Shown: positions 11,597-23,886 of the stretch, piece by piece
Layout of the letters: every line of letters begins with the position of its first letter
Position numbering within the stretch: the first letter of the stretch is position 1
IMG/VR virus record: IMGVR_UViG_3300009154_000277
Coordinates: 1 to 24,123 of that record
Origin: a virus
DNA: 24,123 bases
Strand: one strand, 5' to 3'
Position numbers and translations under genes: made by a program
Notes under the pieces: model-generated
The model's input: only the letters and a program-made list of their open reading frames with translations
Told to the model about the DNA's origin: nothing
The model's database searches: none

Positions 11597-11668
11597 AGCC
11601 ACCTGTCGGATTTGAACCGACGACCTGTGCTTTACAAAAACACTGCACTACCGCTGTGCTAAGGTGGC
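11597..11668 (-). tRNA. tRNA-Thr (TGT)
   Basis: Full cloverleaf: acceptor GCCACCT/AGGTGGC, D arm with GGTA, anticodon stem GTGTT/AGCAC with loop TTTGTAA, T arm GTCGG-TTCGAAT-CCGAC. The anticodon TGT reads ACA. CCA is not encoded. It stands apart from the main tRNA cluster, 6 nt from the stop of the nuclease-like gene. Confidence 0.95.
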
Positions 11669-13347: not shown

Positions 13348-13354
13348 TATTTAT
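13348..13354 (-). promoter_or_regulatory. ATAAATA motif 5 nt before an ATG
   Basis: ATAAATA overlaps the TAA stop of the [2Fe-2S] gene and ends 5 nt before the ATG at 13342. The same motif-to-ATG spacing occurs at 15144-15150 and 21696-21702. If this is a late -10, the transcript would begin at or near the ATG. Confidence 0.4.
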
Positions 13355-13551
13355 GGATCGGACTGGATGAGCCTATCAAACACCGTCTCTCCCGTCCGAA
13401 GAGACTCACGAATGTAGGGCTTGCACATTCCACATGCACTGCCGCATCCGAGAGCCTTCTCCACGTCGTCTGCGGTCCATCCTTTCGGCCTTGCCTCCTC
13501 TAGGATCTCGGAGAAGGTCATGCTGAAACAGATGCACCGATCTATCGTCAT
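13351..13551 (-). CDS. BFD-like [2Fe-2S] protein
   Basis: A 66-residue protein with the bacterioferritin-associated ferredoxin pattern: RCICF at residues 5-9 (the C-x-C pair), about 30 residues, then GCGSACGMCKPYI carrying the second cysteine pair (CGMC). Between them EILEEARPKGWTADDVEKAL corresponds to the helical spacer of the family. BFD domains hold a [2Fe-2S] cluster and pass electrons or help iron release. The ATG at 13551 overlaps the HAD gene's TGA (ATGA). The partner is unknown; a Dps-like protein is encoded in the same operon (14767-15138), which makes an iron link possible but unproven. Confidence 0.78.
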   Translation of the reverse strand: MTIDRCICFSMTFSEILEEARPKGWTADDVEKALGCGSACGMCKPYIRESLRTGETVFDRLIQSDP

Positions 13552-14081
13552 TTGAACCCGAGTTCCTTGAGGCGAGCGATGGTCTTTGAGGCATTCGTAT
13601 GGAGAATGCCGATGCCACCCTTCGCCTCCCACTCCTTGATGTTCTTGCTCCAGTCGTCAATCAGCACGTTCGGTCTGCCGTCTTGCGTGGCGAAGTTCTG
13701 CTTCTCCTCACGCTTCACGAGATTGATCTTGGCGGGACTGGGGCTCAGGTTTTTCTTCACCCAGAGAATCTTGTCTTGGCGGCAGTTGGGCTGCCACGAG
13801 GATGTGGGTGCCGAAAGGATTTCCGCATGGTACTTGCTGATGAAGGACCACAGCCGTCGCATGTCGGGCATGGGAGGCAGTTCCGCAAACAAATGGGGAT
13901 GCTGCTCATCGATCTTGGGCTTCATCGGATCGACGAACTCGTCAAAGGTTCGATTGGTCAACTTGCGACCGTACAGTTCGCTCACGCCACCCACGAGATC
14001 CGCCAGAACGCCGTCCATGTCGCAGTAGATCGTAGGGAGAGAAGGAGGGGATTCGGAGAGGTGTTCGATAAAGTCTTTCAT
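13548..14081 (-). CDS. HAD-superfamily phosphatase (deoxynucleotidase-like)
   Basis: A 177-residue HAD hydrolase. Motif I is YCDMDGVLADL with the nucleophile Asp20 and Asp22. Motif II is LSAPTS (about 89-94), the Lys region NLVKREEKQ is about 119-127, and motif IV is VLIDDWSKNI with the metal-binding Asp pair. The overall layout matches the 5'(3')-deoxyribonucleotidase (NT5C) group common in phages, which dephosphorylates (deoxy)nucleoside monophosphates; a role in 5'-end or sugar-phosphate turnover cannot be excluded. The first ten residues, MKDFIEHLSE, resemble a T4 capsid-targeting sequence, which raises the possibility that the enzyme is packaged. It overlaps the PAP2 gene by ATGA at its start and the BFD gene at its end. 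Confidence 0.82.
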   Translation of the reverse strand: MKDFIEHLSESPPSLPTIYCDMDGVLADLVGGVSELYGRKLTNRTFDEFVDPMKPKIDEQHPHLFAELPPMPDMRRLWSFISKYHAEILSAPTSSWQPNCRQDKILWVKKNLSPSPAKINLVKREEKQNFATQDGRPNVLIDDWSKNIKEWEAKGGIGILHTNASKTIARLKELGFK

Positions 14082-14770
14082 GTCAAAAAATCCACAAGTC
14101 CATGCCGGACAACGTCTCGGCCCAGTATTATACCCGCTTTACAGTCGGAAGGGAAGTGAACTCCACCTATAATTCTGCTCTTTGAGATTCTCTGGGCCAA
14201 CTTCTTGAAGTCCTGCTCGAACTCGGGGTGGAGTATGGTCAGGGCCTCGCTGAACATGCCAACGTCGAAGGCGTGCCCGGAAGGGTAGGCTGGTGTAAGG
14301 GGGTCCGACAGAAGCCGCTCAATCCTCTTGCCCAGCATGGGTCCGAGTTGGTAGGGTCTTGGTCGGTTGTAGTACAACTTCGTGTAGAGGATGAACCCAT
14401 TTCCCTGTTCGGCCATGGTGTCGAACCATTCCCAGTCATAAGGCTTTCCGGTGAGTTCAGTGGCCGTCTCCGCCCAGAGTTGGTAGTGAGCGTGAAGATC
14501 GTCAACCTTGAGGGCGAAGGACCGTTCTGCGGGGGTGGACTCGGCCATCACCTCGACCATCTGGTTGAGTTCCAGCATCGTCTCGGTGCTGGAGTTCGCA
14601 TGGGGAGGGCACACCTTGGGGACCGACTGGTTTGCATCACGACGAGCGACGTACCGTCCAAGAACCGTACTCGTATCGCTCGTATGGGAAATGACCAGAG
14701 CGGTGTCCTTCGGGGTGAGTTTCCCGTAGGACACTGAGTCGATTCCGTTGTGTTCCCCGAAGGTTCTCAT
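14078..14770 (-). CDS. Soluble PAP2-family acid phosphatase
   Basis: A 230-residue protein with the complete PAP2/vanadium haloperoxidase signature: K131-x6-RP (KLYYNRPRP), PSGH at 163-166, and SR-x5-H-x3-D (SRIIGGVHFPSD at 198-209), giving the catalytic His pair and Asp. It has no signal peptide and no membrane segments, unlike most lipid-phosphatase PAP2 enzymes, so it should be cytoplasmic or virion-borne and act on soluble phosphate esters. The N-terminal 90 residues are variable and mostly helical. The start and end both overlap neighbours as ATGA, so it is coupled to the Dps-like and HAD genes. Its proximity to a second phosphatase is notable. Confidence 0.88.
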   Translation of the reverse strand: MRTFGEHNGIDSVSYGKLTPKDTALVISHTSDTSTVLGRYVARRDANQSVPKVCPPHANSSTETMLELNQMVEVMAESTPAERSFALKVDDLHAHYQLWAETATELTGKPYDWEWFDTMAEQGNGFILYTKLYYNRPRPYQLGPMLGKRIERLLSDPLTPAYPSGHAFDVGMFSEALTILHPEFEQDFKKLAQRISKSRIIGGVHFPSDCKAGIILGRDVVRHGLVDFLT

Positions 14771-15138
14771 GAGAGTCGGAGGAGGTACTTGGTCTTGTTG
14801 ACCGAGCCCAACATCTCATCTCTGATGTTCAGAAGATCGGTGTCCTTGTCCTTGTCGAGATACGTTGGGAGTTCGGTTGTGAGGTAGTTCACCACGCCGT
14901 CAAGGTAGTCCATGACATCCTTCTTGGACTTGTAGTTTTCAGCCGCCATCGTGAACGCTTCCTTGCTCACGGGAACGCCACCACGCTTGCCTGAGAAGGT
15001 TTCAACGAACTCATCGATGTTGCCACCAAGGTCATCATACAGGGAACCCAGAGCCTGATGCTCGGCGTACGACTTGGTTTGCCAATGATAGATGCGAAGT
15101 TGAGACTGAATCGACAGGAATTTGGTGATGACGTTCAT
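14767..15138 (-). CDS. Dps/ferritin-like phage protein (DUF5856-like)
   Basis: A 123-residue helical protein. FLSIQSQLRIYHWQTKSYAEH, then ALGSLYDDLGGNIDEFVETF, has the Dps-like pattern of a first helix with HW and a second helix with H...D...E. It corresponds to a phage family of unknown function that I associate with the name DUF5856. Whether it binds iron is not shown; only part of the Dps ferroxidase set is visible. A longer upstream frame exists, but the ATG at 15138 is chosen because the similarity begins there. GAGAC precedes it, and the CTAAATAG motif lies 5 nt upstream. It overlaps the PAP2 gene by ATGA. Confidence 0.68.
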   Translation of the reverse strand: MNVITKFLSIQSQLRIYHWQTKSYAEHQALGSLYDDLGGNIDEFVETFSGKRGGVPVSKEAFTMAAENYKSKKDVMDYLDGVVNYLTTELPTYLDKDKDTDLLNIRDEMLGSVNKTKYLLRLS

Positions 15139-15142
15139 GTCT

Positions 15143-15271
15143 CTATTTAGTCTCTTTGGGCTTCTTGGGCTCCTTGGCTTTCTTCTTGCCAAAGATCCGT
15201 TCGTAGTTCTCGTCCCACTTCTTCTGATCCACCGGGCGATATGAATCTCCCTTGCCTGCCTGTCCGTTCAA
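15143..15271 (-). CDS. Small conserved phage protein with TTG start
   Basis: A 42-residue protein reading NGQAGKGDSYRPVDQKKWDE after the start, followed by NYERIFGKKK and a KPK-rich tail. The pattern 'kGd.YRPVd..Kw.eNYerIFGkkk' is one I have seen in many T4-like and other phages; its function is unknown. The start is TTG at 15271 overlapping the TGA of the upstream gene (TTGA), with a strong AAGGAGG 7 nt before it. This is the same arrangement as Dam at 6384. The non-ATG start and short length make it easy to miss. The stop TAG is part of a CTAAATAG motif. Confidence 0.8.
   Translation of the reverse strand: MNGQAGKGDSYRPVDQKKWDENYERIFGKKKAKEPKKPKETK
15144..15150 (-). promoter_or_regulatory. 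CTAAATA motif 5 nt before the Dps-like ATG
   Basis: CTAAATA followed by GAGAC and the ATG at 15138. It overlaps the TAG stop of the 42-residue gene. Compare ATAAATA-GAAAC-ATG at 21702-21688. Confidence 0.4.
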
Positions 15272-15819
15272 TGCGAATCCTCCTTCCACCACTTCGGCTT
15301 GATTCCGGTCTTCCATGCGGCGAACCTACGCTTCTCGCCCATGTAGTAGTTGCGGTATGCGGTGACCGCATCGGGATTGCGATACTGGTCGGGCATTGCC
15401 TGAGCGAACGAGGTCGTCCCATTCACCGTGGCGATGTTTCGGGGGGCACTGCGAAGGAAGTTGTACGTGAGGCCCTCCATCGAATGGTGCTTCTGGTAGC
15501 GATCCGTGTACTCTCGGAGGAGGGCATCGAGGTGATCGTAGAGCCAGAAGTAGTTCTTGTTGTTCTCCATTGCCCAGCGAGTACAGGGGTGGTTGACCAT
15601 GGTGGCCTTACACAGAACCTTGTCGAAGGCGGGGTTGGGATGATCCCACTGCTTGATCCTCCTGCCCGTGCGGGAGAGGGCCGTGGTGGGCTTGCCGTCA
15701 AGGACTCGGTGGGCCGTCGAGAGCATCTGGGCACTCTCTACAATCATTTTACACACATGACGGTCACACAGGTCCTTTGCTGCGAGCCACGGGTCCCGAT
15801 TTACGACAAAGATGTTCAT
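15268..15819 (-). CDS. Conserved phage protein of unknown function
   Basis: A 183-residue protein beginning MNIFVVNRDPWLAAKDLCDR, followed by HVCKMIVESAQMLSTAHRVLDG. It later has NHPCTRWAMENNKNYFWLYDH and a C-terminal FAQAMPDQYRN...AYRNYYMGEKR. This block order matches a widespread phage family, sometimes labelled pyrimidine-dimer glycosylase in databases, though no catalytic evidence for that is seen here. Conserved His, Asp, Cys and Trp residues suggest an enzyme. The ATG at 15819 is chosen: GAGGAG precedes it at good spacing and the family begins there. It overlaps the gene upstream by 56 nt and the 42-residue gene by TTGA. Confidence 0.78.
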   Translation of the reverse strand: MNIFVVNRDPWLAAKDLCDRHVCKMIVESAQMLSTAHRVLDGKPTTALSRTGRRIKQWDHPNPAFDKVLCKATMVNHPCTRWAMENNKNYFWLYDHLDALLREYTDRYQKHHSMEGLTYNFLRSAPRNIATVNGTTSFAQAMPDQYRNPDAVTAYRNYYMGEKRRFAAWKTGIKPKWWKEDSH

Positions 15820-16045
15820 ACTTCTCCTCAATGCTTCGAGCAATATCGTAGTTCTTCTTGACCAACTTCTCCAGTTCACTCAACTGGTCCGTGTATGCCT
15901 CAATCATAGCAGGGTCACGGAGGTCAGGCAAGTCCTCGGCCAAAGGAACCATGCTGTCGAGAATCCTTATCGATTCCTTGATGTATTCCCGCTGGAGCCG
16001 TAGGAGACTGGCCTTGCGTTCATCGAACGACATCTTCTTTCTCAT
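15764..16045 (-). CDS. Unknown charged helical protein
   Basis: A 93-residue protein, not recognised. It is almost entirely charged and helical (FDERKASLLRLQREYIKESI, LSELEKLVKKNYDIARSIEEKYE), with heptad-like leucines suggesting a coiled coil. The ATG at 16045 is chosen because GGAG lies 7 nt upstream; the frame upstream of it runs through tRNA-Pro. The last 18 codons overlap the next gene by 56 nt in another frame, which is long for this genome. The C-terminal tail (GPVARSKGPV) may therefore be less constrained. Confidence 0.6.
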   Translation of the reverse strand: MRKKMSFDERKASLLRLQREYIKESIRILDSMVPLAEDLPDLRDPAMIEAYTDQLSELEKLVKKNYDIARSIEEKYEHLCRKSGPVARSKGPV

Positions 16046-16061
16046 GGTGTTCTCCAACCAA

Positions 16062-16135
16062 TCAGGGTGAGAGGATTTGAACCTCCGACCTTCTGGACCC
16101 AAACCAGATGCTCTACCAAACTGAGCCACACCCTG
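16062..16135 (-). tRNA. tRNA-Pro (TGG)
   Basis: Acceptor CAGGGTG/CACCCTG, D arm GCTC-AGTTTGGTA-GAGC, anticodon stem TCTGG/CCAGA with loop TTTGGGT (anticodon TGG, G37), T arm GGAGG-TTCAAAT-CCTCT. Reads CCA. It lies just upstream of the coding start at 16045, whose ribosome site is in the short gap. Confidence 0.95.
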
Positions 16136-16236
16136 TAACCCCCACCCATAATGAGCATCACCTTGCGGCGAGAGGCTCGGTGGGGCAGTGGTGCGTTGTC
16201 TCCGGAGCCGCACCACCTTTTGAATATCTATCCGAA
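16136..16236 (-). other. 100-nt gap in the tRNA cluster with a hairpin
   Basis: This gap between tRNA-Pro and tRNA-Gly is wider than the others (4-20 nt). It holds no T-arm consensus. GTGGTGCG (16216-16209) can pair with CGCACCAC (16195-16188) across a 13-nt loop. It may be the remnant of a tRNA or a processing element. Confidence 0.35.
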
Positions 16237-16309
16237 AGCGGACGAAGGGGTTCGAACCCTCGACAATCAGATTGGAAATCTGACACTCTACCAACTGAGT
16301 TACGCCCGC
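16237..16309 (-). tRNA. tRNA-Gly (TCC)
   Basis: Acceptor GCGGGCG/CGTCCGC, D arm ACTC-AGTTGGTA-GAGT, anticodon stem TCAGA/TCTGA with loop TTTCCAA (anticodon TCC), T arm GAGGG-TTCGAAC-CCCTT. Reads GGA. Confidence 0.95.
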
Positions 16310-16313
16310 AACA

Positions 16314-16386
16314 TGACCCTATGGGGACTCGAACCCCAGTCTGGTCCGTGAAAGGGACCCGTCCTAGACCGCTAGACGATAGGGCC
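16314..16386 (-). tRNA. tRNA-Glu (TTC)
   Basis: Acceptor GGCCCTA/TAGGGTC (one G-T pair), D arm GTCTAGCGGTCTAGGAC, anticodon stem GGTCC/GGACC with loop CTTTCAC (anticodon TTC), T arm TGGGG-TTCGAGT-CCCCA. The D arm and loop match E. coli tRNA-Glu closely. Reads GAA. Confidence 0.94.
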
Positions 16387-16390
16387 GAGG

Positions 16391-16603
16391 TCAATCCTGT
16401 AGGAAGTTCTTCTTGCTCTCGTCAATGCTATTGTTTCTCGCATCTCGCAGGATGGCCTCGTTGGCCTCCTGATAGCCGAGGTTGTACTCCTCCGAAACGG
16501 GGGAGTGGTCGAGGTCTGGGTACTTTCGGTACTTGTTGGGCCTGCCTTCCATGCGATCGGCGTAGCCTTCACGATATCCTGATCCGGGGGTATAGTTTGC
16601 CAT
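16391..16603 (-). CDS. Small unknown protein between tRNA genes
   Basis: A 70-residue hydrophilic protein (MANYTPGSGYREGYADRMEG start) with two 'GY' segments, GYREGYADRMEGRP and YNLGYQEANEA. The spacing vaguely recalls the ribosome modulation factor fold (GYxxGxxGR ... GWxEG), but the similarity is too weak to assign. It lies between tRNA-Ala and tRNA-Glu. The ATG at 16603 is only 2 nt from the tRNA-Ala 3' end and no good Shine-Dalgarno is present, so translation may need unprocessed transcript. It is supported mainly by its compact fit between the two tRNA genes. Confidence 0.55.
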   Translation of the reverse strand: MANYTPGSGYREGYADRMEGRPNKYRKYPDLDHSPVSEEYNLGYQEANEAILRDARNNSIDESKKNFLQD

Positions 16604-16605
16604 AA

Positions 16606-16678
16606 TGGAGCCTACGGGGATCGAACCCGTCGTCTCTACCTTGCAAAGGTAGCGATTCACCTTCGAATCTTCGGCCCC
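16606..16678 (-). tRNA. tRNA-Ala (TGC)
   Basis: Acceptor GGGGCC/GGCTCC (seventh pair G-A), D arm GATTC...GAATC, anticodon stem CTACC/GGTAG with loop TTTGCAA (anticodon TGC), T arm ACGGG-TTCGATC-CCCGT. Reads GCA. The D arm is unusually strong (5 bp). Confidence 0.92.
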
Positions 16679-16683
16679 AACAA

Positions 16684-16766
16684 TGGGTAAGGAGGGATTC
16701 GAACCCCCGTAGGCGTAAGCCAACACGTTTACAGCGTGCCCTCGTTGACCGCTTGAGTACCTACCC
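16684..16766 (-). tRNA. tRNA-Tyr (GTA), long variable arm
   Basis: Class II tRNA: acceptor GGGTAGG/CTTACCC, anticodon stem GCACG/CGTGT with loop CTGTAAA (anticodon GTA), a variable arm with GGC-TTAC-GCC, T arm GGGGG-TTCGAAT-CCCTC. Reads TAC/TAT. Confidence 0.92.
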
Positions 16767-16773
16767 ATATCAA

Positions 16774-16907
16774 ACTGGATGACGGGATTCGAACCCGTGT
16801 GAATCAGCATCGTGGGGCGAAGCCCGTGGCTTCTCTTGACCCGATTCAGAGGTCGCCCACGACACACCTGTAGCCTTGCGGTGCGTGTCCCACCACGCCG
16901 CATCCAG
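16774..16907 (-). ncRNA. 133-nt tRNA-like RNA with no normal cloverleaf
   Basis: The ends are those of a tRNA: a perfect 7-bp acceptor CTGGATG/CATCCAG and a perfect T arm ACGGG-TTCGAAT-CCCGT directly 5' of the 3' acceptor strand. Between them lie about 100 nt instead of the usual 45-60. A D-like arm GCGTG-GTGGGA-CACGC fits, but no 17-nt anticodon arm follows it. The interior can form a long stem TCGTGGG/CCCACGA and a tight hairpin GAAGCC-ACG-GGCTTC. GACCT-CTGAATC-GGGTC could be an anticodon arm (GAA), but position 37 would be T and the surrounding lengths are wrong. It could be a tRNA with an insertion, a fused or decayed tRNA, or a distinct tRNA-like RNA. Confidence 0.6.
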
Positions 16908-16911
16908 AAAA

Positions 16912-16982
16912 CTTCCCCGCTAGGATTCGAACCTAGGAAAGCACATTAACAGTGTGCCGTGATACCGTTTCACCACAGGGAA
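16912..16982 (-). tRNA. tRNA-Asn (GTT)
   Basis: Acceptor TTCCCTG/CGGGGAA, D arm GTGA-AACGGTA-TCAC, anticodon stem GCACA/TGTGC with loop CTGTTAA (anticodon GTT), T arm CTAGG-TTCGAAT-CCTAG, discriminator G. Reads AAC/AAT. Confidence 0.94.
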
Positions 16983-16984
16983 CA

Positions 16985-17055
16985 CTACCCCACTAGGACT
17001 CGAACCTAGACACAATCCTCCAAAGGGACCGGTGCTGCCATTACACCATGGGGTA
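16985..17055 (-). tRNA. tRNA-Gln (TTG)
   Basis: Acceptor TACCCCA/TGGGGTA, anticodon stem GGTCC/GGATT (two G-T pairs) with loop CTTTGGA (anticodon TTG), T arm CTAGG-TTCGAGT-CCTAG, discriminator G as usual for Gln. Reads CAA. Confidence 0.9.
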
Positions 17056-17060
17056 TGCGA

Positions 17061-17318
17061 TCACTTGCCGTTGCGTTCGCCACGCCTCACGGGCGGGGTC
17101 TCGGGACGCTCCACGACGATCGATCCACGCTCGTCGCTCCGAGCATCGACCACGCCCTCGTGGACAGGACGATGGCGAGCGGGGGTGAACACGAAGCCGA
17201 CAGCACTCACTGCGATCATAAAGACCGACAGCGTGCGGATGGCGCAAGTGATGGCACACCAAATGCTCTTGTTCGAACTCTTGACCTGACTCTGACAATT
17301 CGTTGCTTCACAATCCAT
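17061..17318 (-). CDS. Small membrane protein
   Basis: An 85-residue protein, not recognised. One hydrophobic segment at about 26-49 (CAITCAIRTLSVFMIAVSAV) predicts a single transmembrane helix. The N-terminal side carries Cys residues (DCEATNCQ) and the C-terminal 35 residues are strongly charged (ARSDERGSIVVERPETPPVRRGERNGK). The ATG at 17318 follows CAGGAG at 7 nt. It is followed by the tRNA-Gln gene after 5 nt. A role in the host envelope or in lysis is possible but nothing specific is seen. Confidence 0.7.
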   Translation of the reverse strand: MDCEATNCQSQVKSSNKSIWCAITCAIRTLSVFMIAVSAVGFVFTPARHRPVHEGVVDARSDERGSIVVERPETPPVRRGERNGK

Positions 17319-17336
17319 GACAATCTCCTGTAAAAG

Positions 17337-17540
17337 TTACTCGATCACCTTGTTGAATTCCATGTGAACGCCACGACGGGCGATCACGCTCAGAATGCTT
17401 TCGGCCTGCTCCAGACGGACATCCAGAGCATGGGCTTGAATCTCATTCACCTTGTTGCAATAGAACACGTACATCGAAAACACAAGGTTGATGATTCCAA
17501 GCCATAGAACAAAACGCTTCATCTGCTTCTTATCGGACAT
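17337..17540 (-). CDS. Small membrane-anchored protein
   Basis: A 67-residue protein: a basic N-terminus MSDKKQMKR, one transmembrane helix FVLWLGIINLVFSMYVFYC (about 10-28), then an amphipathic helix (ALDVRLEQAESILSVIARRG). This layout fits a bitopic inner-membrane protein; a holin or spanin component is possible but not shown. The ATG at 17540 is preferred because GAGGAG lies 5 nt upstream; a GTG at 17546 that overlaps the previous stop (GTGA) is the alternative. Confidence 0.7.
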   Translation of the reverse strand: MSDKKQMKRFVLWLGIINLVFSMYVFYCNKVNEIQAHALDVRLEQAESILSVIARRGVHMEFNKVIE

Positions 17541-17542
17541 TC

Positions 17543-17860
17543 TCACTCCTCTTGTTTAGTCACCGTCAGAAGTGCGGTGACGATCATTGAATCTCCAGTG
17601 TCTACGATCTCGATCTTCGAGATCCTGCGATCATCGTCGGAGGCACCATAGAACGAGATGGTGTCGTTCATGTGAACGAAGGGTCCGCCTTCGAAGTCGA
17701 TGAACTCATACCCGCTGTTCTTGTCGTCCCAGCCCATCCGATGATACAGCGATCGACCGCTGAGGGTGTACTGGGTGTCGTTGATCTTCTTCAGGACACG
17801 GTTGTCGCCATAGCGACTGGTGCTTACGTATTCGGACTTGATTGTTTTCATGATGTTCAT
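17543..17860 (-). CDS. Unknown phage protein
   Basis: A 105-residue protein, not recognised. It is mostly beta-like with charged turns (SRYGDNRVLKKINDTQYTLSG, FEGGPFVHMNDTISFYGAS, SKIEIVDTGDSMIVTALLTV), perhaps a small beta-barrel. It begins 1 nt after the WYL_2-like gene stop, with no clear Shine-Dalgarno, so it is probably translationally coupled. A second ATG lies three codons in. Confidence 0.65.
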   Translation of the reverse strand: MNIMKTIKSEYVSTSRYGDNRVLKKINDTQYTLSGRSLYHRMGWDDKNSGYEFIDFEGGPFVHMNDTISFYGASDDDRRISKIEIVDTGDSMIVTALLTVTKQEE

Positions 17861-17861
17861 T

Positions 17862-18152
17862 TCAGATTGCCGGAAGGGGAACTTCGATGCGAGACCATTC
17901 GGTGATGTTCTTGAGGTAGAAGCATCGCCAGTCCTTCTTCTCCACGTCCCATGCGTAAACCCGATCAGGGGACGAACGAACCTTGTCGTCCTTGCCCTCG
18001 CTCACTGCGACCTCACCTCGATCCGGAAGATGCTGGGGCATGAGTGTGGCATACATGGTGCGAAGAGTTCCGTCCACCTTGGTGAAGGTCACCTTGCATA
18101 TGGACTGACGGAGGTCTGCCAATACATGTTCACGAGTTGGTTGTGTTTCCAT
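17862..18152 (-). CDS. WYL_2/DUF2693-like small protein, probably leaderless
   Basis: A 96-residue protein. CKVTFTKVDGTLRTMYATL, then VYAWDVEKKDWRCFYLKNI, is the layout of the phage family WYL_2 (formerly DUF2693), thought to adopt an Sm-like SH3 barrel: 'v.FtK.DG..R.m.aTl ... v.vwD.e...WR.fr...I'. Function unknown; a regulatory or nucleic-acid role is often guessed. The -10 of a near-perfect extended promoter ends 7 nt before the ATG, and no Shine-Dalgarno fits in the gap. The mRNA would therefore start at or next to the ATG. Confidence 0.8.
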   Translation of the reverse strand: METQPTREHVLADLRQSICKVTFTKVDGTLRTMYATLMPQHLPDRGEVAVSEGKDDKVRSSPDRVYAWDVEKKDWRCFYLKNITEWSRIEVPLPAI

Positions 18153-18159
18153 TGCAAGA

Positions 18160-18187
18160 AGTATAGCAGGTCACGGGTCCGTGTCAA
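18160..18187 (-). promoter_or_regulatory. Strong extended -10 promoter before the WYL_2-like gene
   Basis: On the minus strand, TTGACA (18187-18182), a 16-nt spacer ending in TGC, then TATACT (18165-18160). The ATG is 7 nt downstream of the -10. This is among the best sigma70 matches in the window. Confidence 0.8.
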
Positions 18188-18219
18188 GATTCATCGACAC
18201 TATTTTTGCGTGTCTTGAA

Positions 18220-19128
18220 TCAGCCAGCGGTTTCTGGATACTTCCTCGTGATGTCGGACGGGACTTGGTCGGTCTTGGGTCCGAGAATCTCGGCTTGCTC
18301 CAAGGTCTTGAGGACAGCCGACTCGTTGAACCTCGGATCTCCCGCCTTCTTGATGCGAAGGTACAGGGGTTCATTCTCGAAGCCCTTCTTCATCTTGAGG
18401 ATCTGTCCGGTTTGACCTGCCCGACCACCTTCGGGACGAACCATCTCGGCTCTGCCGCCCAGAACGACGGCAACGTCGCCGTTGATGCCCAACTTGGGGT
18501 AGTTCTGAATCACGACTTCGGTCATCGTCTTCTTGGCACCTGCGTGCGTCTGGAAGAGAATGCTGTTGAACACTCGGCGTTCACGCTTGTAGTTCTGGTC
18601 CACGGCGATTCGGACATCGGTCAAAACCCAAACGATGTGAATGTTCTCGGGCTTGTAGCCGTATTCCTTGAGCCGGTTGCTCTCGTTGATGGCGGCACGC
18701 TCGGACTTGAGGGTGCAGTCGATGATGATGTTCGGCTTCTCTTGGTTGTCCTTGTTGGCCGTGAGGGAGTAGATCAACTGCTTGTCGTCCTTGCCGAGGT
18801 CCTTCACCATCATGTGAAGTTTCGCCACGTCGGACGGATTTCGAAGATCCATCTTGGCGATCTCGCTCGAAACGTCACGAACCTTTCCGAACTTCTTGGC
18901 GAACTCGGGATCAGCGACGATTTTGCTCGCCACCTTCTTGAGGGCCAACTTCAGACTGTCCGGGTCCCAGACTTTCCAGTCGCCACCGATGACGTTCTTG
19001 ATGACCCAACCCTTTCCCGAACCCGCACCACCGGCGAGAATCACGGCTTGGTTGTACCGCTGACCCTTTCCGAGGATCAGGAGTTTTTCCATAAGGAGTT
19101 CACGGAGTTGTTCAAACAGAATGGGCAT
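18220..19128 (-). CDS. P-loop kinase / zeta-toxin-like protein
   Basis: A 302-residue protein with Walker A AGGAGSGKGW at about 32-41, preceded by a hydrophobic strand (AVIL), and an NIIIDCTLKSERAAIN segment (about 133-148) like the second strand of small kinases. HIVWVLTDVRIAVDQNYKRERRV (about 163-185) is like the lid/Arg region of zeta-toxin and polynucleotide-kinase-type P-loop proteins. The fold is likely ATP-dependent phosphotransfer; the substrate is unknown. The ATG at 19128 follows AGAGGAAC. It lies 12 nt after the capsid-targeting-like gene at 19141-19581. An ATAAATA motif at 19316-19322 inside that gene may be its promoter. Confidence 0.72.
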   Translation of the reverse strand: MPILFEQLRELLMEKLLILGKGQRYNQAVILAGGAGSGKGWVIKNVIGGDWKVWDPDSLKLALKKVASKIVADPEFAKKFGKVRDVSSEIAKMDLRNPSDVAKLHMMVKDLGKDDKQLIYSLTANKDNQEKPNIIIDCTLKSERAAINESNRLKEYGYKPENIHIVWVLTDVRIAVDQNYKRERRVFNSILFQTHAGAKKTMTEVVIQNYPKLGINGDVAVVLGGRAEMVRPEGGRAGQTGQILKMKKGFENEPLYLRIKKAGDPRFNESAVLKTLEQAEILGPKTDQVPSDITRKYPETAG

Positions 19129-19140
19129 CGGGTGTTCCTC

Positions 19141-19581
19141 TTATACTTTCAACTTCGGGTCGGGACTCATGAAGTTCTTCTTCTTCATCGCAGTGACCAT
19201 GACCATCTTCTTAATCTTGCCATCCCAGTCGAGCGTGAAGGGCATGTTCAAGTCCTTGCTCACGTCGTTGATGATGGCCTTCCAGTCCGCCTTGTGATTG
19301 CTGATCTCTTTGGAGTATTTATCATAAGTCTTACGGAAGGCATCCTGTATCTCGGGAATGGACACAGTGCCGCCGTAGCCACGACTTCCGTTGATGCGTT
19401 CCCAGAAGTGCTTGGTGAAGGCGATGTCGAGATTGGCCGAACGGAACATCTGGTCCAGAACCGTCTCAAGACGCTTCAGGTCGTTCCATGCGACCATGTG
19501 CTGCTGAGGAGTGACTGGCGTGGACCTGTCCGCAGGCGTGAACGTCCATGTCTCGGTGATGTACGACTTGAATGATTTCAT
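19141..19581 (-). CDS. Putative internal head protein with capsid-targeting-like N-terminus
   Basis: A 146-residue protein. Residues 1-10, MKSFKSYITE, closely resemble the T4 capsid-targeting sequence (MKTYQEFIAE of internal proteins, cut after I-x-E by the prohead protease). The remainder has FTKHFWERINGSRGYGGTVS (about 55-74), then EIQDAFRKTYDKYSKEI and a C-terminal MPFTLDWDGKIKKMVMVTA followed by MKKKNF. I recall the same block in proteins of other T4-like phages; its function is not known, and the HFxERI start recalls small RelE/BrnT-type toxins only loosely. It starts 3 nt after its neighbour's stop. An enzyme packaged in the head is possible. Confidence 0.65.
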   Translation of the reverse strand: MKSFKSYITETWTFTPADRSTPVTPQQHMVAWNDLKRLETVLDQMFRSANLDIAFTKHFWERINGSRGYGGTVSIPEIQDAFRKTYDKYSKEISNHKADWKAIINDVSKDLNMPFTLDWDGKIKKMVMVTAMKKKNFMSPDPKLKV

Positions 19582-19584
19582 TGA

Positions 19585-19890
19585 TTATCTCTCCATGGAC
19601 TGCCAGTTTGGTGTTGTTGGTAGGCTCTTGTCTGTCACGACTTCCTTCATGCCGAGAAACCCCGCCTTTGCCCAGCGAAGGATTTCATTTCGCCTCTCGT
19701 TGGCCGTAAGAGCGTTTCGTATCTCCCAAGGCTTCTTCATCCGCTTCTTCTTCTCGGCGTACTCATCGTCGCCGAAGTCCTCAACGTCCCAGTCTCCCGT
19801 GGCAAGATCGACTTGGAAGTCTCTTCCGTAGGAGAACAGTGAGGTGGTGTTTCCGATTTCCTCTCGTATGAATCGTGAGAATGACTTCAT
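19585..19890 (-). CDS. Putative internal head protein, paralogue of its neighbour
   Basis: A 101-residue protein. MKSFSRFIRE at the N-terminus is capsid-targeting-like. The rest aligns with the adjacent gene (19890-20222): IGNTTSLFSYGRDFQV against IGSTSDILNYGGKDFQI, and ERRNEILRWAKAG...PNWQ against QRRKDILRWMSGI...PKWQ. The ATG at 19890 shares its A with the neighbour's TAA stop (TAATG), so the longer upstream frame is rejected. The middle is very acidic (DWDVEDFGDDEYAE). A tandem duplicate of a structural or packaged protein is the simplest reading. Confidence 0.68.
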   Translation of the reverse strand: MKSFSRFIREEIGNTTSLFSYGRDFQVDLATGDWDVEDFGDDEYAEKKKRMKKPWEIRNALTANERRNEILRWAKAGFLGMKEVVTDKSLPTTPNWQSMER

Positions 19891-20222
19891 TATTTTCCGT
19901 GCTTCTTGATGTGGTTTTTTCGAACGACGTGCTGCCACTTGGGAATGTCGGGGATTTCCTTCTCATCAGCGATGGCACGGATGTCCTTGGTGATCCCGCT
20001 CATCCACCTGAGAATGTCCTTTCGACGCTGCTCCACATGGATCGAGTTCTTTCCCTGCCATGTATCCTCGTCGTAAGAGTGGTCAGGAGACATACCCCTC
20101 ACTTGGGTGACGACGGTCTTTCCCTTGATCTTGGAAACGATCTGGAAGTCCTTGCCACCGTAGTTGAGGATGTCGGAGGTTGAGCCGATCGATTCAGTGA
20201 GCCATTGGGAGAACTTTTTCAT
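19890..20222 (-). CDS. Putative internal head protein, first of a tandem pair
   Basis: A 110-residue protein starting MKKFSQWLTES, a capsid-targeting-like N-terminus with L-x-E for processing. It shares IGSTSDxLxYG-DFQ and the RRKDILRW...PxWQ segments with the next gene. The C-terminus is basic (RKNHIKKHGK), which could contact packaged DNA. The ATG at 20222 is preceded by AGGA. An ATAAATA late-type motif (20244-20250) lies 21 nt upstream, not in a stop codon. It is the leading gene of a unit running 20222-18220. Confidence 0.7.
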   Translation of the reverse strand: MKKFSQWLTESIGSTSDILNYGGKDFQIVSKIKGKTVVTQVRGMSPDHSYDEDTWQGKNSIHVEQRRKDILRWMSGITKDIRAIADEKEIPDIPKWQHVVRKNHIKKHGK

Positions 20223-20243
20223 CGTGGGGAAATCCTATGGGAT

Positions 20244-20250
20244 TATTTAT
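20244..20250 (-). promoter_or_regulatory. Late-type motif ATAAATA before the internal-protein operon
   Basis: ATAAATA lies between the terminator of the outer-membrane gene and the ATG at 20222. The leader has AGGA before the ATG. It is one of the cleanest examples of the motif, being independent of any stop codon. Confidence 0.55.
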
Positions 20251-20259
20251 GAAATGACA

Positions 20260-20279
20260 GAGGGGGCTTTCGCCCCCTC
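20260..20279 (-). terminator. Terminator-like hairpin after the outer-membrane gene
   Basis: A perfect 8-bp stem, GAGGGGGC/GCCCCCTC, with a GAAA loop on the minus strand, 40 nt after the stop of the barrel gene. The following sequence TGTCATTTC is only moderately T-rich, so termination may be partial. Confidence 0.6.
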
Positions 20280-20319
20280 CAATCAAGCCAAGGTAGAGAA
20301 TCGAGCGGAATGCCCGAAC

Positions 20320-21093
20320 TTAGAACGAGAACGAAATGCCGCCGTGGGCGACCCAATCGGTCTCACTGAACGAAGCATCCACGTCCTGATAGACGGGGAG
20401 ACCCACGCCGAAATCCGCATGGAAGTTCTTCGTGGGGGTCAGAACGAACGACGGGCCAGCGAGAACAGTCGTGCTGCTGGTGTCGAAGGCGAACTGGGCA
20501 TCGAGGTCAGCCCCGATGGTGAACCAGTCGCAAGCCTTCCACGAGAGGCCCGTCTGAGAGGTCAGGACACCGTCCTGAACGGTCCCACCGAGGGTGGGAT
20601 TGAAGACCACGCCATCGAAGGCATAGTCGAAGGAAACCTTCTCCGAGGCCGAAACCTTGCCCCAGTCAAGCGACAGAGCCGCATCGACATGAGGGACGAC
20701 GTTGTCGGGAGAGAAGGCGGTGTCGAACGCCGGAATCAGGGCACCGCCACCGAGGGTGACGGAAGCCGAACCGCCGAGAGTCTTGCCGTTCCATACGGCA
20801 TAGTCGGCGAAGACATCGAAACCGGCGACACCGAGATCGGTCTGATCGACGGTCGGCATCGCCACGCCAACCGTAAGATCCTTGAGGAACAGATCCTTCA
20901 GGGCGACCGTGGGGGTCACCACGAAGACCGAGTCGGTCGAACCATCGAACTTGTGGTACGAGGTATCGACCGTGAACGAAACCTTTGCCGAAGTCTCGGC
21001 AAGACCGACCTTGGCGGGTGCAGCGGGCTGAGCCATGGACACCGAGGCCGTAACGAACGAGGCGAGAACTGCGAACTTGCTAAAGATATTCAT
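20320..21093 (-). CDS. Phage-encoded outer-membrane beta-barrel protein
   Basis: A 257-residue protein. The signal peptide MNIFSKFAVLASFVTASVSMAQ has an Ala-x-Ala-like cleavage site (SMA-QPA), and a proline/alanine linker follows. The remainder alternates hydrophobic and polar residues in strands of 8-12 (KVSFTVDTSYHKF, FLKDLTVGVAM, GKTLGGSASVTLGGG, ASEKVSFDYAFDG, FTIGADLDAQFAF, NFHADFGVGLPVY). It ends in HGGISFSF with a terminal Phe, the signal recognised by BamA. These features fit a porin-like outer-membrane protein. The ATG at 21093 is preferred (a TTG lies one codon upstream); AAGGAG is near. It has its own sigma70-type promoter and terminator, so it may be expressed early and could block superinfection at a receptor. 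Confidence 0.78.
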   Translation of the reverse strand: MNIFSKFAVLASFVTASVSMAQPAAPAKVGLAETSAKVSFTVDTSYHKFDGSTDSVFVVTPTVALKDLFLKDLTVGVAMPTVDQTDLGVAGFDVFADYAVWNGKTLGGSASVTLGGGALIPAFDTAFSPDNVVPHVDAALSLDWGKVSASEKVSFDYAFDGVVFNPTLGGTVQDGVLTSQTGLSWKACDWFTIGADLDAQFAFDTSSTTVLAGPSFVLTPTKNFHADFGVGLPVYQDVDASFSETDWVAHGGISFSF

Positions 21094-21149
21094 CAAATCA
21101 ATACTCCTTGAAAAGGTTAGAAACTACACTCTCCTTGGCAGAGAGGCAC

Positions 21150-21177
21150 AGTATATTACTCTGTCGGCAGGAATCAA
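21150..21177 (-). promoter_or_regulatory. sigma70-type promoter of the outer-membrane gene
   Basis: On the minus strand, TTGATT (21177-21172), a 16-nt spacer and TATACT (21155-21150). It gives a leader of about 50 nt to the ATG at 21093. Confidence 0.68.
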
Positions 21178-21215
21178 CCGAGACTGAAAACTTTCTTTAT
21201 TGCGATTGGAAATAG

Positions 21216-21246
21216 AAGGACCCTCCTTGTGGATTGGAGGGTCCTT
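21216..21246 (-). terminator. Terminator hairpin, first copy of a repeated element
   Basis: An 11-bp stem, AAGGACCCTCC/GGAGGGTCCTT, around a 9-nt loop, followed by CTATTTCC on the minus strand. The core, including the loop, is identical over 25 nt to the hairpin at 22054-22082. It ends transcripts from the 21298-21690 gene and sits before the promoter of the outer-membrane gene. Confidence 0.65.
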
Positions 21247-21294
21247 CGGACCATCGTCTCTCGACAATGGTGGGGTGACTGGGATGGTCAGGGG

Positions 21295-21301
21295 TATTTA
21301 G
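21295..21301 (-). promoter_or_regulatory. CTAAATA motif at the stop of the 21298-21690 gene
   Basis: CTAAATA contains the TAA stop. No gene starts between here and the terminator at 21246, so as a promoter it would make only a short structured RNA. It may equally be a stop context. Confidence 0.35.
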
Positions 21302-21690
21302 GGCTTGCCTTTCTTGAGTGTTGCCAACTTTCTCTTCACGGCGGGGCTGGCGAGAACCTTCTCGGCCTCGGCGAACCCTCGGATGTAGTAGCCCGTGAAG
21401 TCTCCTGCACTGCCCTTGGAGTCGTTGATGATGCGGTTCGCCTGCTCGTATGAGAGGTGGCCCGAAGCGACTCTGTCGGCGATGTCACGAAGGCGACGGG
21501 GAATCTCCTTGAGTCCGTACTCATACGACAGCATACCCGCACCACGGAAGTGGACCATGATCTCACCCTTGTCATCGAGGTAGATGCCCCCGAGAGGCGA
21601 CGAGGAGTCGGTCGAGGTGTAGATCGTGGTGTTCTCGGCGAGGGACTGCTTGCGAAGTCCGCCGTCCCAGAGTTCGGCGAAAGATTTCAT
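21298..21690 (-). CDS. Putative internal head protein
   Basis: A 130-residue protein. MKSFAELWDG...SLAEN at residues 1-20 resembles a longer capsid-targeting sequence ending in L-A-E, the cleavage consensus of T4-type prohead protease. The rest is not recognised: a beta-like stretch (GGIYLDDKGEIMVHFRGAG) followed by helices (EIPRRLRDIADRVASGHLSY, ANRIINDSKG), ending in a basic tail KRKLATLKKGKP. ATAAATA-GAAAC precedes the ATG by 5 nt, a position shared with two other genes here. It is followed by a terminator. Confidence 0.68.
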   Translation of the reverse strand: MKSFAELWDGGLRKQSLAENTTIYTSTDSSSPLGGIYLDDKGEIMVHFRGAGMLSYEYGLKEIPRRLRDIADRVASGHLSYEQANRIINDSKGSAGDFTGYYIRGFAEAEKVLASPAVKRKLATLKKGKP

Positions 21691-21695
21691 GTTTC

Positions 21696-21702
21696 TATTT
21701 AT
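21696..21702 (-). promoter_or_regulatory. Late-type motif ATAAATA 5 nt before an ATG
   Basis: ATAAATA-GAAAC-ATG before the capsid-targeting-like gene ending at 21690. It does not overlap any stop codon, so it is not explained by coding. Confidence 0.5.
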
Positions 21703-21743
21703 CCAAAAAGAATTCCCATTGCTGGGGGTTCGGGCTCCTCCAC

Positions 21744-21995
21744 TCAGGAGAGGGGAGGGGTTGAGAAGGCTCCTGCCTTCCGAGAGTGCTTGGTCTCTTC
21801 CTCCGAGCGATCCATGGTCACGACACCCGCCGTGTTTCCGTTGCTGTCTCGGATGACCACCACATCGGTTTCCCGAATGGTGTTGTGATTGTGATTGATG
21901 ACATGGGATGCCTGAGTCAGCATTCGTTCCACTTCAAGAGCGAAGTTCTCCTGAAAGGCATCGTTGTCCGTCGTGAATGAGATGGTTACTTTCAT
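21744..21995 (-). CDS. Small unknown protein, probably leaderless
   Basis: An 83-residue protein, not recognised. MKVTISFTTDNDAFQENFALE is followed by a probable helix and then ETDVVVIRDSNGNTAGVVTMD, an alpha/beta-looking small domain. A His/Asn-rich turn, HVINHNHNT, lies in the middle. The -10 (TATTCT) ends 8 nt before the ATG, so the transcript would start at or near the start codon. A TTG three codons upstream would need even less leader and is not used here. Confidence 0.62.
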   Translation of the reverse strand: MKVTISFTTDNDAFQENFALEVERMLTQASHVINHNHNTIRETDVVVIRDSNGNTAGVVTMDRSEEETKHSRKAGAFSTPPLS

Positions 21996-22003
21996 AGGGA
22001 GCA

Positions 22004-22032
22004 AGAATAGACGGGGACGAGAGGAAAGTCAA
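22004..22032 (-). promoter_or_regulatory. sigma70-type promoter 8 nt from the ATG
   Basis: On the minus strand, TTGACT (22032-22027), a 17-nt spacer and TATTCT (22009-22004), then 8 nt to the ATG at 21995. Confidence 0.62.
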
Positions 22033-22053
22033 GTCCTTCGTCTCGGAAACAAA

Positions 22054-22082
22054 GAGACCCTCCTTGTGGATTGGAGGGTCTC
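22054..22082 (-). terminator. Terminator hairpin, second copy of the repeated element
   Basis: A 10-bp stem, GAGACCCTCC/GGAGGGTCTC, around the same 9-nt loop as 21216-21246, followed by TTTGTTT on the minus strand. It terminates the 22140-22343 gene and immediately precedes the next promoter. Confidence 0.75.
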
Positions 22083-22136
22083 CTCGATGGCCCGAGCGAG
22101 AGTTCTCGGGCGGGGACCGTTTGGGTCCTCTGTTCT

Positions 22137-22143
22137 TATTTAT
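22137..22143 (-). promoter_or_regulatory. ATAAATA motif at the stop of the 22140-22343 gene
   Basis: ATAAATA overlaps the TAA stop, as at 21295. About 55 nt downstream begins the shared terminator hairpin; between them GCCCGAG/CTCGGGC forms another stem. Confidence 0.35.
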
Positions 22144-22343
22144 CGAACGACGTTCTCGGGAGTGACGACGAACGGAGTGCCGTGCCGTCCGCCCATGTTC
22201 ACGACGACATGGGTGCCCATGGCGAGGACGACCTTGGAGGTCTTGGAGCGGTACTCGATTCCATTCCTGCCTTGACCGCTGGGGACGAGATAGGTGACAC
22301 GGGAGCCGGGGCGAAGGGAGGCGATGTACGTGGCGTTGCTCAT
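22140..22343 (-). CDS. Small beta-barrel-like protein
   Basis: A 67-residue protein, not recognised. It is beta-rich with a KOW/SH3-like feel (RPGSRVTYLVPSGQG, SKTSKVVLAMGTHVVVNMGG, TPFVVTPENVVR). The ATG at 22343 follows AAGGAG at 6 nt. It is the last gene of the unit 23081-22140 and is followed by the terminator. Confidence 0.65.
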   Translation of the reverse strand: MSNATYIASLRPGSRVTYLVPSGQGRNGIEYRSKTSKVVLAMGTHVVVNMGGRHGTPFVVTPENVVR

Positions 22344-22371
22344 GATTTCTCCTTTTCGGTGTCTGCTTGGT

Positions 22372-22725
22372 TCACAGGTAGTTGGTGCCGAACACGCTCA
22401 CGGCGTTCATGCCGTTGCTCGGATCGTAGATCGACCCACGGGCGTGCTTGGCGGGGGCGTTCCACGAGGCGGGCATGAGGATGTCGCCGCTTCGGTAGGG
22501 AGTGCCGTCGATCTCTCCATCGCTCATGGCGACGAATCCCATCACTCGCCTGCTGCTGTCCTCTGCGATGATCTTGATGAACTTGCGACCCTTGGGGGCC
22601 ACCTTCAGGACGGGAGGGGTCAGGGGGGAGAGGTTGACACGATAGTGCTGGGTCACTCGCTCTTGCCACGAGTTCAGGAAGGAGACGAAGGCGGGGGTCG
22701 AGGCGGTGGTCATGGTGGTGGTCAT
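22372..22725 (-). CDS. Conserved phage protein of unknown function
   Basis: A 117-residue protein. FVSFLNSWQERVTQHYRVNL leads into PLTPPVLKVAPKGRKFIKII, and it ends GDILMPASWNAPAKHARGSI, then IYDPSNG...FGTNYL. I recognise the same layout from small hypothetical proteins of many phages ('GrKyakIv ... G.ilkaasw.aPaKhaRGnIfd...g...yG..YL'); the function is not known. Two candidate ATGs (22725 and 22713) exist and neither has a good Shine-Dalgarno. It begins 11 nt after the previous stop. Confidence 0.72.
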   Translation of the reverse strand: MTTTMTTASTPAFVSFLNSWQERVTQHYRVNLSPLTPPVLKVAPKGRKFIKIIAEDSSRRVMGFVAMSDGEIDGTPYRSGDILMPASWNAPAKHARGSIYDPSNGMNAVSVFGTNYL

Positions 22726-22736
22726 GGGATGGGTTC

Positions 22737-23081
22737 TCAGGCGACGACGACGGGACGGAGGAAGCGACTGGCGACAATTTCCTTGGCGAGGTCGGTGAGG
22801 GACTTGGACTCACGGACCATCATCGCACGGTGATCGTAGCACTTGAAGGCGTTCTCGGGGGTGCGGGTGGTGAAGCCCACCACATGGGCATCGTCGCTGT
22901 TGGTCGGCTGGACGATGATTACGCCGTCCTCACTCTTGGTGGGGACGGAGACGGTGATGAACATCTCACGCCCACCCACGGTGGCCCGCATGGTGATGTC
23001 GGCGGGGCTCATCGGGGCGTACATCAGGAGGAGGGCTTGGGTGGCGAGGGCGGGGGAGAGGATGGTGGCGGTGGTCGTCAT
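22737..23081 (-). CDS. Unknown protein, probably leaderless
   Basis: A 114-residue protein, not recognised. ATVGGREMFITVSVPTKSED and GVIIVQPTNSDDAHVVGFTT look beta-rich, and a helical C-terminus (SKSLTDLAKEIVASRFLRPVVV) follows. The ATG at 23081 is taken: a good promoter's -10 ends 7 nt upstream, and no Shine-Dalgarno is present. The longer upstream frame would run through the promoter, so it is rejected. Confidence 0.65.
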   Translation of the reverse strand: MTTTATILSPALATQALLLMYAPMSPADITMRATVGGREMFITVSVPTKSEDGVIIVQPTNSDDAHVVGFTTRTPENAFKCYDHRAMMVRESKSLTDLAKEIVASRFLRPVVVA

Positions 23082-23088
23082 ATGCAAT

Positions 23089-23117
23089 AGTATATCGGCC
23101 ACCCATTCGAAAATCAA
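23089..23117 (-). promoter_or_regulatory. sigma70-type promoter 7 nt from the ATG
   Basis: On the minus strand, TTGATT (23117-23112), a 17-nt spacer and TATACT (23094-23089), then ATTGCAT and the ATG at 23081. Compare the WYL_2-like gene, where TCTTGCA separates -10 and ATG. Confidence 0.72.
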
Positions 23118-23180
23118 CAGTTGAAGGTGAAAAAAATCGAATCTTTTCAAGACCGAACGGAGACCTTCCGAACATCCCCC

Positions 23181-23212
23181 AAAAGAACAAGGCACCAGTT
23201 TCCTGATGCCTT
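23181..23212 (-). terminator. Intrinsic terminator after the 23247-23846 gene
   Basis: A 10-bp stem, AAGGCATCAG/CTGGTGCCTT (one T-G pair), with a GAAA tetraloop, then GTTCTTTT on the minus strand. It lies 35 nt after the gene's stop and is a textbook intrinsic terminator. Confidence 0.85.
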
Positions 23213-23246
23213 GATTCGATCTGATTCGGATTTCATTCGGAAAGGA

Positions 23247-23846
23247 TCAATGCTGATCGTGGAGAAGGAGGATCGGCTTGCCCTTCCATGCGGAACCGGG
23301 TCCGGTGGTCCACTTGAAGGCAAGGCCGAAGTTGCAATCCTTGAGGCTCTTGGCGGCGGTGCTGTTTTCCATGTCAACGGCAAGCATCCCTCCGAAGTCC
23401 TTGACCTCGGGGGCACTGTACCTCGGGTCGGCTTTCGCAACCCTCGACGCAGGAACCTTGATGACCTTCGCCTTGAACTCGGGGTACGCAGTCGAGAATA
23501 CCTGAACAGGGGAAGCAGCCGTGGCGGGAGGAGTGGTCTTCACGGGAGGATTGCTTGCGGGAGATTCCTTCTTGCCGATCTTCTTGAGCATCACCGAATC
23601 ACCCTCAACCTTGGTCACCTGAAAGAACTGAGCATCGGCGACACCGTAGGGAGGCTCGGGCTCATCGCCATAAGCATAAGAAAACGAACCGAAGATGTCG
23701 CCGACCTTGACCTGCTCGGCGGCTTCACTGATCGGAAGGCTCGTCGGACGGACGATGCCGTCCCAGTTCTCGTTGAACTGCTTCGATGCGTTGCGAACCT
23801 GATCGAACGACTCAGAGATGTTGCGATATGATTTCCAATCCTTCAT
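23247..23846 (-). CDS. Putative internal head protein with capsid-targeting-like N-terminus
   Basis: A 199-residue protein. MKDWKSYRNISES at the N-terminus fits the capsid-targeting pattern with I-S-E as cleavage site. AEQVKVGDIFGSFSYAYGDE (about 42-61), then QFFQVTKVEGDSVMLKKIGK suggests a small beta-barrel. A proline/alanine/threonine-rich linker (NPPVKTTPPATAASP) joins a second region ending in KGKPILLLHDQH. The ATG at 23846 follows AAAGGA. A CTAAATA late-type motif lies 33 nt upstream and a terminator follows, so it is a single-gene unit. The molecular function is not recognised. Confidence 0.72.
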   Translation of the reverse strand: MKDWKSYRNISESFDQVRNASKQFNENWDGIVRPTSLPISEAAEQVKVGDIFGSFSYAYGDEPEPPYGVADAQFFQVTKVEGDSVMLKKIGKKESPASNPPVKTTPPATAASPVQVFSTAYPEFKAKVIKVPASRVAKADPRYSAPEVKDFGGMLAVDMENSTAAKSLKDCNFGLAFKWTTGPGSAWKGKPILLLHDQH

Positions 23847-23879: not shown

Positions 23880-23886
23880 TATTTAG
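23880..23886 (-). promoter_or_regulatory. Late-type motif CTAAATA before the 23247-23846 gene
   Basis: CTAAATA lies 33 nt upstream of the ATG at 23846, in non-coding sequence with an AAAGGA ribosome site between. No other gene is near, so it is a good test case for the motif. Confidence 0.55.

Follow-up and report, generated by a model that had tools for sequence, protein, structure and literature searches.

The internal proteins IPI, IPII and IPIII of bacteriophage T4 carry the N-terminal sequence MKTYQEFIAE, in which mutants of IPIII, as reviewed, assign residues 4 and 7 to targeting and residues 8 and 10 to processing; T4 also packages an enzyme, the ADP-ribosyltransferase Alt, whose N-terminus is cleaved by gp21 (PMC9026906). 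In the giant phages phiKZ and SPN3US, a gp21-like protease removes long N-terminal propeptides from ejection proteins, cutting behind a glutamate, and these propeptides have been proposed to act in targeting (PMC5694885). The DNA considered here is IMG/VR viral record IMGVR_UViG_3300009154_000277 (24,123 bases; the window), analysed whole and itself a genome fragment. An annotation made from the sequence alone (the first-pass annotation) had placed six proteins with a T4-like N-terminus in it, and all six were found at those positions, on the − strand, when the open reading frames (ORFs) of the window were checked. It is highly probable that this shared N-terminus (the tag) is a T4-type capsid-targeting sequence, which would bring its proteins into the head, be cut off by gp21 and let them be delivered with the DNA.

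Four of the N-termini show the full pattern: MKDFIEHLSE, MKSFKSYITE, MKSFSRFIRE and MKKFSQWLTE, in genes starting at 14081, 19581, 19890 and 20222. Two, in genes starting at 21690 (MKSFAELWDGGLRKQSLAE) and 23846 (MKDWKSYRNISE), are weaker, shifted versions. All begin at Met1 and extend over 10–19 residues. Lys2, an aromatic residue at position 4 and a following (I/L)-x-E had been ascribed to all six, which is exact for the first four proteins, including I/L at position 8 and E at position 10, and loose for the 21690 and 23846 proteins, in which F or W occupies position 4 and the shifted (I/L)-x-E lies further downstream, at residues 17–19 and 10–12, respectively. Counting H as aromatic, five of the six have aromatic residues at both 4 and 7; in the 21690 protein, position 7 is occupied by L. 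A strict pattern built on the residues defined by the IPIII mutants (MK.[FYWH]..[FYWH][ILVM].E) matches four of the 2545 ATG, GTG and TTG codons on both strands of the window, and all four matches are the starts of ORFs of 101–177 amino acids (14081, 19581, 19890 and 20222). Inside proteins of ten phage genomes the 9-residue pattern occurs six times in ~319,000 positions, which gives 0.00075 expected matches for ~40 genes against the four observed (Poisson 1e-14, or 7e-11 when the paralogues 19890 and 20222 are counted once). The occurrence of the tag in the window is not due to chance. As a control, the same expression retrieved ipII, ipIII and gp61.1 from T4 and nothing from SPO1 or P1. T4 gp61.1 (NC_000866, 18966–19130; 54 amino acids, function unknown), whose start MKTFKEFIKE fits the tag, is encoded beside the primase gene.

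In related contigs the 10-residue tag is found on different bodies, joined to them at the predicted cut and absent from some orthologues. MKSFKSYITE precedes TWTFTPAD in the window and KHDGDGDCMQAA, an unrelated sequence, in contig L163, where two domains are fused in one protein; in contig L165 they are two proteins, each with its own tag. A P-loop kinase in contig L174 begins MKKFSEFITE, followed at the predicted cut by QKLFEEFLEEKLIML, whereas its counterparts in the window and in the close relative G001 begin MPILFE, near where the tag would end. G001 retains the tag on its orthologues of the 14081 and 19581 proteins. A search with the family of the 19581 protein gave 80 loci, with the full tag at the protein start in 29 and both aromatic positions in 18 more. 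Across 2.7 Mb of sequence, 104 distinct tagged proteins (a few of them probably chance ORFs, such as a polymerase fragment) fall into 20 body clusters, which include a deoxyribonucleotidase, cytidylyltransferases, Zeta-toxin-like kinases and, at 6447–7007 of contig L188, an HD_4 protein that resembles small ppGpp hydrolases and starts MKSFTEYLLE. Positions that the expression leaves free are still T4-like (reference MKTYQEFIAE and then A), with S or T at position 3 in 69 of the 104, Q, K or E at position 6 in 72 of the 104, and A the commonest residue at position 11, uncorrected for kinship among the sequences. In the AlphaFold model of the L163 protein the pLDDT is under 50 for the tag and 79–94 for most of the next domain. 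Residues 1–24 of one tagged relative give a match to phrog_2667 (E 0.002).

Virion proteomes of two T4-like cyanophages bear on packaging. In S-CREM2, 52 of 219 proteins are listed as detected in purified virions (Table 3 of PMC10665884). The pattern was fixed before this genome was fetched, except that H was later allowed at position 4, which no match uses. Its strict matches are three, the SAM hydrolase ORF6 (MKDFDSFLEE), the APH/ChoK kinase ORF14 (MKRFDAFLTE) and the cytidylyltransferase ORF154 (MKNFSSFLTE), all in the published virion proteome (Fisher p 0.013); a relaxed pattern has six matches, five of them detected (p 0.003). These three ORFs make up the entire class listed as regulatory and suspected of being packaged or carried over (PMC10665884). 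In S-SCSM1, the tagged nicotinamide mononucleotide adenylyltransferase (NMNAT) ORF91 is a virion protein (PMC9602691). The test is small but specific, and in both cyanophages the tag predicts virion proteins, determined by mass spectrometry, that had been left unexplained. S-CREM2 also encodes (OR473000, 7704–10546) ORF12 and ORF13, a virion-detected Cas9-like nuclease with a tag-like RFASFMAE at residues 18–25 and a neighbour, ORF13, that starts MKDLHSFLTE.

As for the protease that such a tag would need, profile searches found an S77 (gp21-type) prohead protease in all nine of the complete T4-superfamily genomes examined and in neither of two others (SPO1 and P1). In Methylophilales phage Melnitz its gene adjoins those of a prohead core protein and gp23, gp21 is annotated in S-CREM2, and record G024 carries both a prohead protease and tags. 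The gp23 propeptides of most of these phages have L-x-E at their ends (a slash marks the propeptide end): FLTE/A in T4, whose gp23 is cleaved at this position, FLSE/A in Melnitz, LLTE/A in S-CREM2, FLGE in HTVC008M, MLNE in S-PM2 and LLQE/A in phiM12; no clear cut site was found in the Cr30 gp23 propeptide. By the proposed mechanism, the window proteins would be made late in infection with a tag of 10 residues (in two cases 12 and 19), which would bind the prohead core by its aromatic residues 4 and 7. Cleavage behind (I/L)-x-E by gp21, the T4-type prohead protease, would follow, so that the head retains the mature protein; the packaged proteins would then leave with the DNA and act early in the next cell.

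Several observations weigh against this reading. Two of the six tags (21690 and 23846) are degenerate and make weaker cases. None of the six proteins matched PHROG internal virion or head profiles, nor did their N-terminal 30-mers at E up to 10; profiles this specific do not capture a 10-mer. A gp21-type protease, for which the first-pass annotation had proposed a search of the rest of the genome, was not found in the 24-kb window, in G001 or G002, or in 13 further nearest contigs, and a test of 14 lineage contigs for gp17, gp18, gp20 and gp23 found none of these genes; the head of this lineage is thus presumed to be of T4 type. Head genes are missing from the window, a fragment of 24 kb, and the contigs nearest to it likewise seem to be fragments without the head region, because none of those 14 carries these four genes. 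Only G021 (145 kb) among the lineage contigs shows T4-type tail genes (baseplate gp5 and gp6); it was considered as a complete genome, but its gp43 and gp45 matches lie in pieces and head genes were not found. Tagging is not universal, because the orthologues of the 14081 protein in Melnitz and HTVC008M and of the 19581 protein in Melnitz lack a clean tag. The S-CREM2 authors could not exclude contamination by abundant proteins (PMC10665884), and in S-SCSM1 a second small tagged protein (44215), encoded between two virion proteins, is not marked as one.

Among other explanations, the one that survives best, though unlikely, is that the tagged proteins are components of the prohead core or its assembly, degraded or expelled at maturation rather than carried to the next cell. 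In T4, gp21 cleaves the core proteins as well (PMC5694885), and the bodies encoded at 19585–19890 and 19890–20222 are small and of no known function, but the 14081 protein belongs to an enzyme family, and finished virions still contain the tagged cytidylyltransferase, SAM hydrolase, kinase and NMNAT. Far less probable is a common N-terminus without any function in targeting that arose by gene duplication or from a similar context of translation starts (A-rich early codons): although two bodies are paralogous, MK starts are common in phage genes and upstream motifs are shared by late genes, the other bodies lie in unrelated clusters, protein positions 4, 7, 8 and 10 are conserved while their neighbours vary, DNA-level forms of the pattern gave 35 matches across 23 T4-like records against none for a reversed-pattern control, and the tag predicted the S-CREM2 virion proteins. 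Equally improbable is a tag for another site in the infected cell, such as a membrane assembly site, with virion presence as a by-product; T4 prohead assembly begins at the inner membrane, which makes membrane-proximal accumulation conceivable, but the protease-type end is retained in homologues that were chosen for their bodies, not for the tag, and agrees with the cut of the gp23 propeptide in relatives.

A T4-type capsid-targeting sequence is therefore preferred, and the first-pass annotation very likely read the N-termini correctly. Its conclusion that the proteins are packaged and injected holds in part, with good support for targeting and processing from the exclusion of chance, the conserved residues, the modular tag, the virion predictions, and the protease and L-x-E ends of relatives, with two of the six proteins as weaker cases. 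Packaging and cleavage in the window phage would follow from homology and from the proteomes of relatives, and are well supported in this way; injection with the DNA would follow from T4 alone. More broadly, and with appreciably less confidence, the data lean towards T4-superfamily phages of many aquatic bacteria sharing a portable 10-residue head-import tag with which they would bring a varying set of early-acting enzymes into the head: nucleotidase, SAM hydrolase, NMN and cytidylyl transferases, P-loop kinases, a ppGpp-hydrolase-like HD protein and a possible RelE-like RNase.

Within the window, the cargo proposed earlier had included a HAD phosphatase, the 14081 protein, which has HAD family matches and the strict tag (Table 1). 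It is predicted from its family to be a HAD-class 5'(3')-deoxyribonucleotidase, presumably acting on nucleotide pools as infection begins; its orthologue in G001 is tagged MKDFQQYLTE, and further tagged orthologues occur in contigs L162, L164, L166 and L226. The ~117-residue domain of the 19581 protein is common to many marine phages and gave a confident model (pLDDT 92), for which the best fold matches include the RelE, HigB and ParE toxins, weakly (none below E 0.1; TM mostly 0.35–0.47); it may, on this slight resemblance, be a RelE-like RNase. For the GDC domain of relatives, fold searches gave a weak resemblance to papain-like peptidases (best E 0.47). The earlier statement that the bodies are mostly unrelated fails for the 19890 and 20222 proteins, paralogues with 31% identity, and holds otherwise, the remaining bodies lying in unrelated clusters. 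Ten homologues of the 19890 family, only 26–30% identical to the first row of their alignment, all keep M1, F4 and E10. Orthologues of the 21690 protein in lineage contigs differ in their N-termini, most of which end in (I/L/V)-x-E near residues 18–22. The 23846 protein has, after its tag, a stretch, KQFNENWDGIVRPTSLPISE, that resembles the 21690 N-terminus; a search for a full-length orthologue of it found none. A second motif, FxExWDGxxRxxxL, common to the 21690 and 23846 proteins and one G001 protein, was dropped with only three occurrences in 14 contigs. A seventh candidate, the P-loop kinase at 18220, was not counted as a member: it begins MPILFEQLRE, with neither K2 nor an aromatic residue at 4 or 7. 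Being untagged in the window and G001 and tagged in L174, L185 and L186, its family shows an apparent gain or loss of the tag.

Table 1. Tagged genes, the neighbouring kinase gene and late-promoter-like motifs in the window.
Feature	Coordinates	Strand	Remarks
HAD 5'(3')-deoxyribonucleotidase-like protein, 177 aa	13548–14081	−	Pfam NT5C 5.5e-10; phrog_2643 1.3e-27
Tag MKDFIEHLSE of HAD protein	14052–14081	−	Predicted cut after E10; catalytic YCDMDG from residue 19
TAAATA	15144–15149	−	5 nt before start (15138) of Dps-like gene
P-loop kinase, Zeta-toxin-like	18220–19128	−	phrog_5268; no clear tag in window; tagged in L174, L185, L186
Tag MKSFKSYITE (19552–19581) and ~117-aa domain	19141–19581	−	Domain matches C-terminus of phrog_23027
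Tag MKSFSRFIRE (19861–19890) and small body	19585–19890	−	Paralogue of 19890–20222 gene
Tag MKKFSQWLTE (20193–20222) and small body	19890–20222	−	Strict tag; paralogue of 19585–19890 gene
ATAAATA, late-promoter-like	20244–20250	−	Upstream of tagged gene run 20222, 19890, 19581
Longer tag-like N-terminus MKSFAELWDGGLRKQSLAE (21634–21690)	21298–21690	−	Predicted cut after E19; body kept in relatives
ATAAATA, late-promoter-like	21696–21702	−	5 nt before 21690 start
Tag-like N-terminus MKDWKSYRNISE (23811–23846)	23247–23846	−	Weakest member
TAAATA, late-promoter-like core	23880–23885	−	Upstream of 23846

The − strand of the window, which comes from a T4-like aquatic phage, carries T4-superfamily replication genes, its DNA polymerase being 47% identical to that of T4-like cyanophages. 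The nearest contigs are L001/G001 (48.6 kb, polymerase identity 85%) and L013/G002 (32.6 kb, 92%), and Melnitz is the closest cultured phage for the 14081 and 19581 proteins. Eight tRNA genes lie on the − strand, at 16062–17055 and 11597–11668, seven of them in one cluster. Between the tagged genes, a 258-residue protein (20320–21096, − strand) has a signal-peptide-like start and the look of an outer-membrane protein; it has no Pfam match, and its G001 orthologue is 63% identical.

T4-type late promoters have the core TAAATA, found as NATAAATA in S-PM2 (PMC2984593). In the window TAAATA occurs 12 times, always on the coding strand, against 1.4 expected, and the earlier observation that a late-type motif stands before three of the tagged genes was borne out for 20222, 21690 and 23846; TAAATA also precedes the Dps-like gene (start 15138) that heads an overlapping Dps-PAP2-HAD gene run. 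In 685 kb of lineage sequence there are 53 ORF starts with TAAATA at a distance of exactly 5 or 6 nt upstream (the best permutation, itself an overlapping motif, gave 11), few cases at 10–16 nt and a broad second group at 17–36 nt; the close spacing is found in the window at 21696–21702, 13348–13354 and 15144–15149. At 5 nt there are 12 cases in HTVC008M, one in S-PM2 and none in S-CREM2, phiM12 or Cr30. If the late-promoter spacing of T4 holds here, these late mRNAs would be leaderless, with the start codon at or beside +1.

Spellings of the tag peptide found no match in the literature (open-licence papers, as throughout this search), and nothing relevant to capsid targeting in marine phages was retrieved. 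The mechanism is the known one of T4 and is not new; a description of the spread of the tag and its enzyme cargo in marine phages, or of the tag as an explanation of virion enzymes, was not found. Cyanophage virion proteomes contain enzymes that cannot be told from contamination (PMC10665884; PMC9602691), and the tag supplies a reason for their presence. It also allows packaged, early-acting proteins to be predicted in uncultured T4-like phages, whose injected proteome would, if the reading is true, be legible from sequence, and it suggests a route for loading foreign proteins into marine phage heads for study, as has been done with T4.

Compared with described systems, the tag agrees with that of the T4 internal proteins in position, length, K2, the aromatic residues at 4 and 7, I/L at 8 and E10, and, as in T4, A often follows it and unrelated bodies stand behind one tag. 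It differs in having S/T-F for T-Y and H or W also at position 7, in a cargo that includes a predicted deoxyribonucleotidase and other families foreign to the internal proteins, and in relatives that are aquatic phages. Alt resembles the proposed window cargo as a packaged enzyme with a cleaved N-terminus, whereas no ADP-ribosyltransferase was recognised among the tagged window proteins. The propeptides of phiKZ and SPN3US, mostly longer than 100 residues, differ in sequence from the window tag. Also comparable are the SAM hydrolase, kinase and cytidylyltransferase of S-CREM2 and the NMNAT of S-SCSM1, non-structural proteins detected in purified virions that bear the same tag, for which the sections consulted in the two papers name no targeting signal (PMC10665884; PMC9602691); the cargo families of the window differ from theirs.

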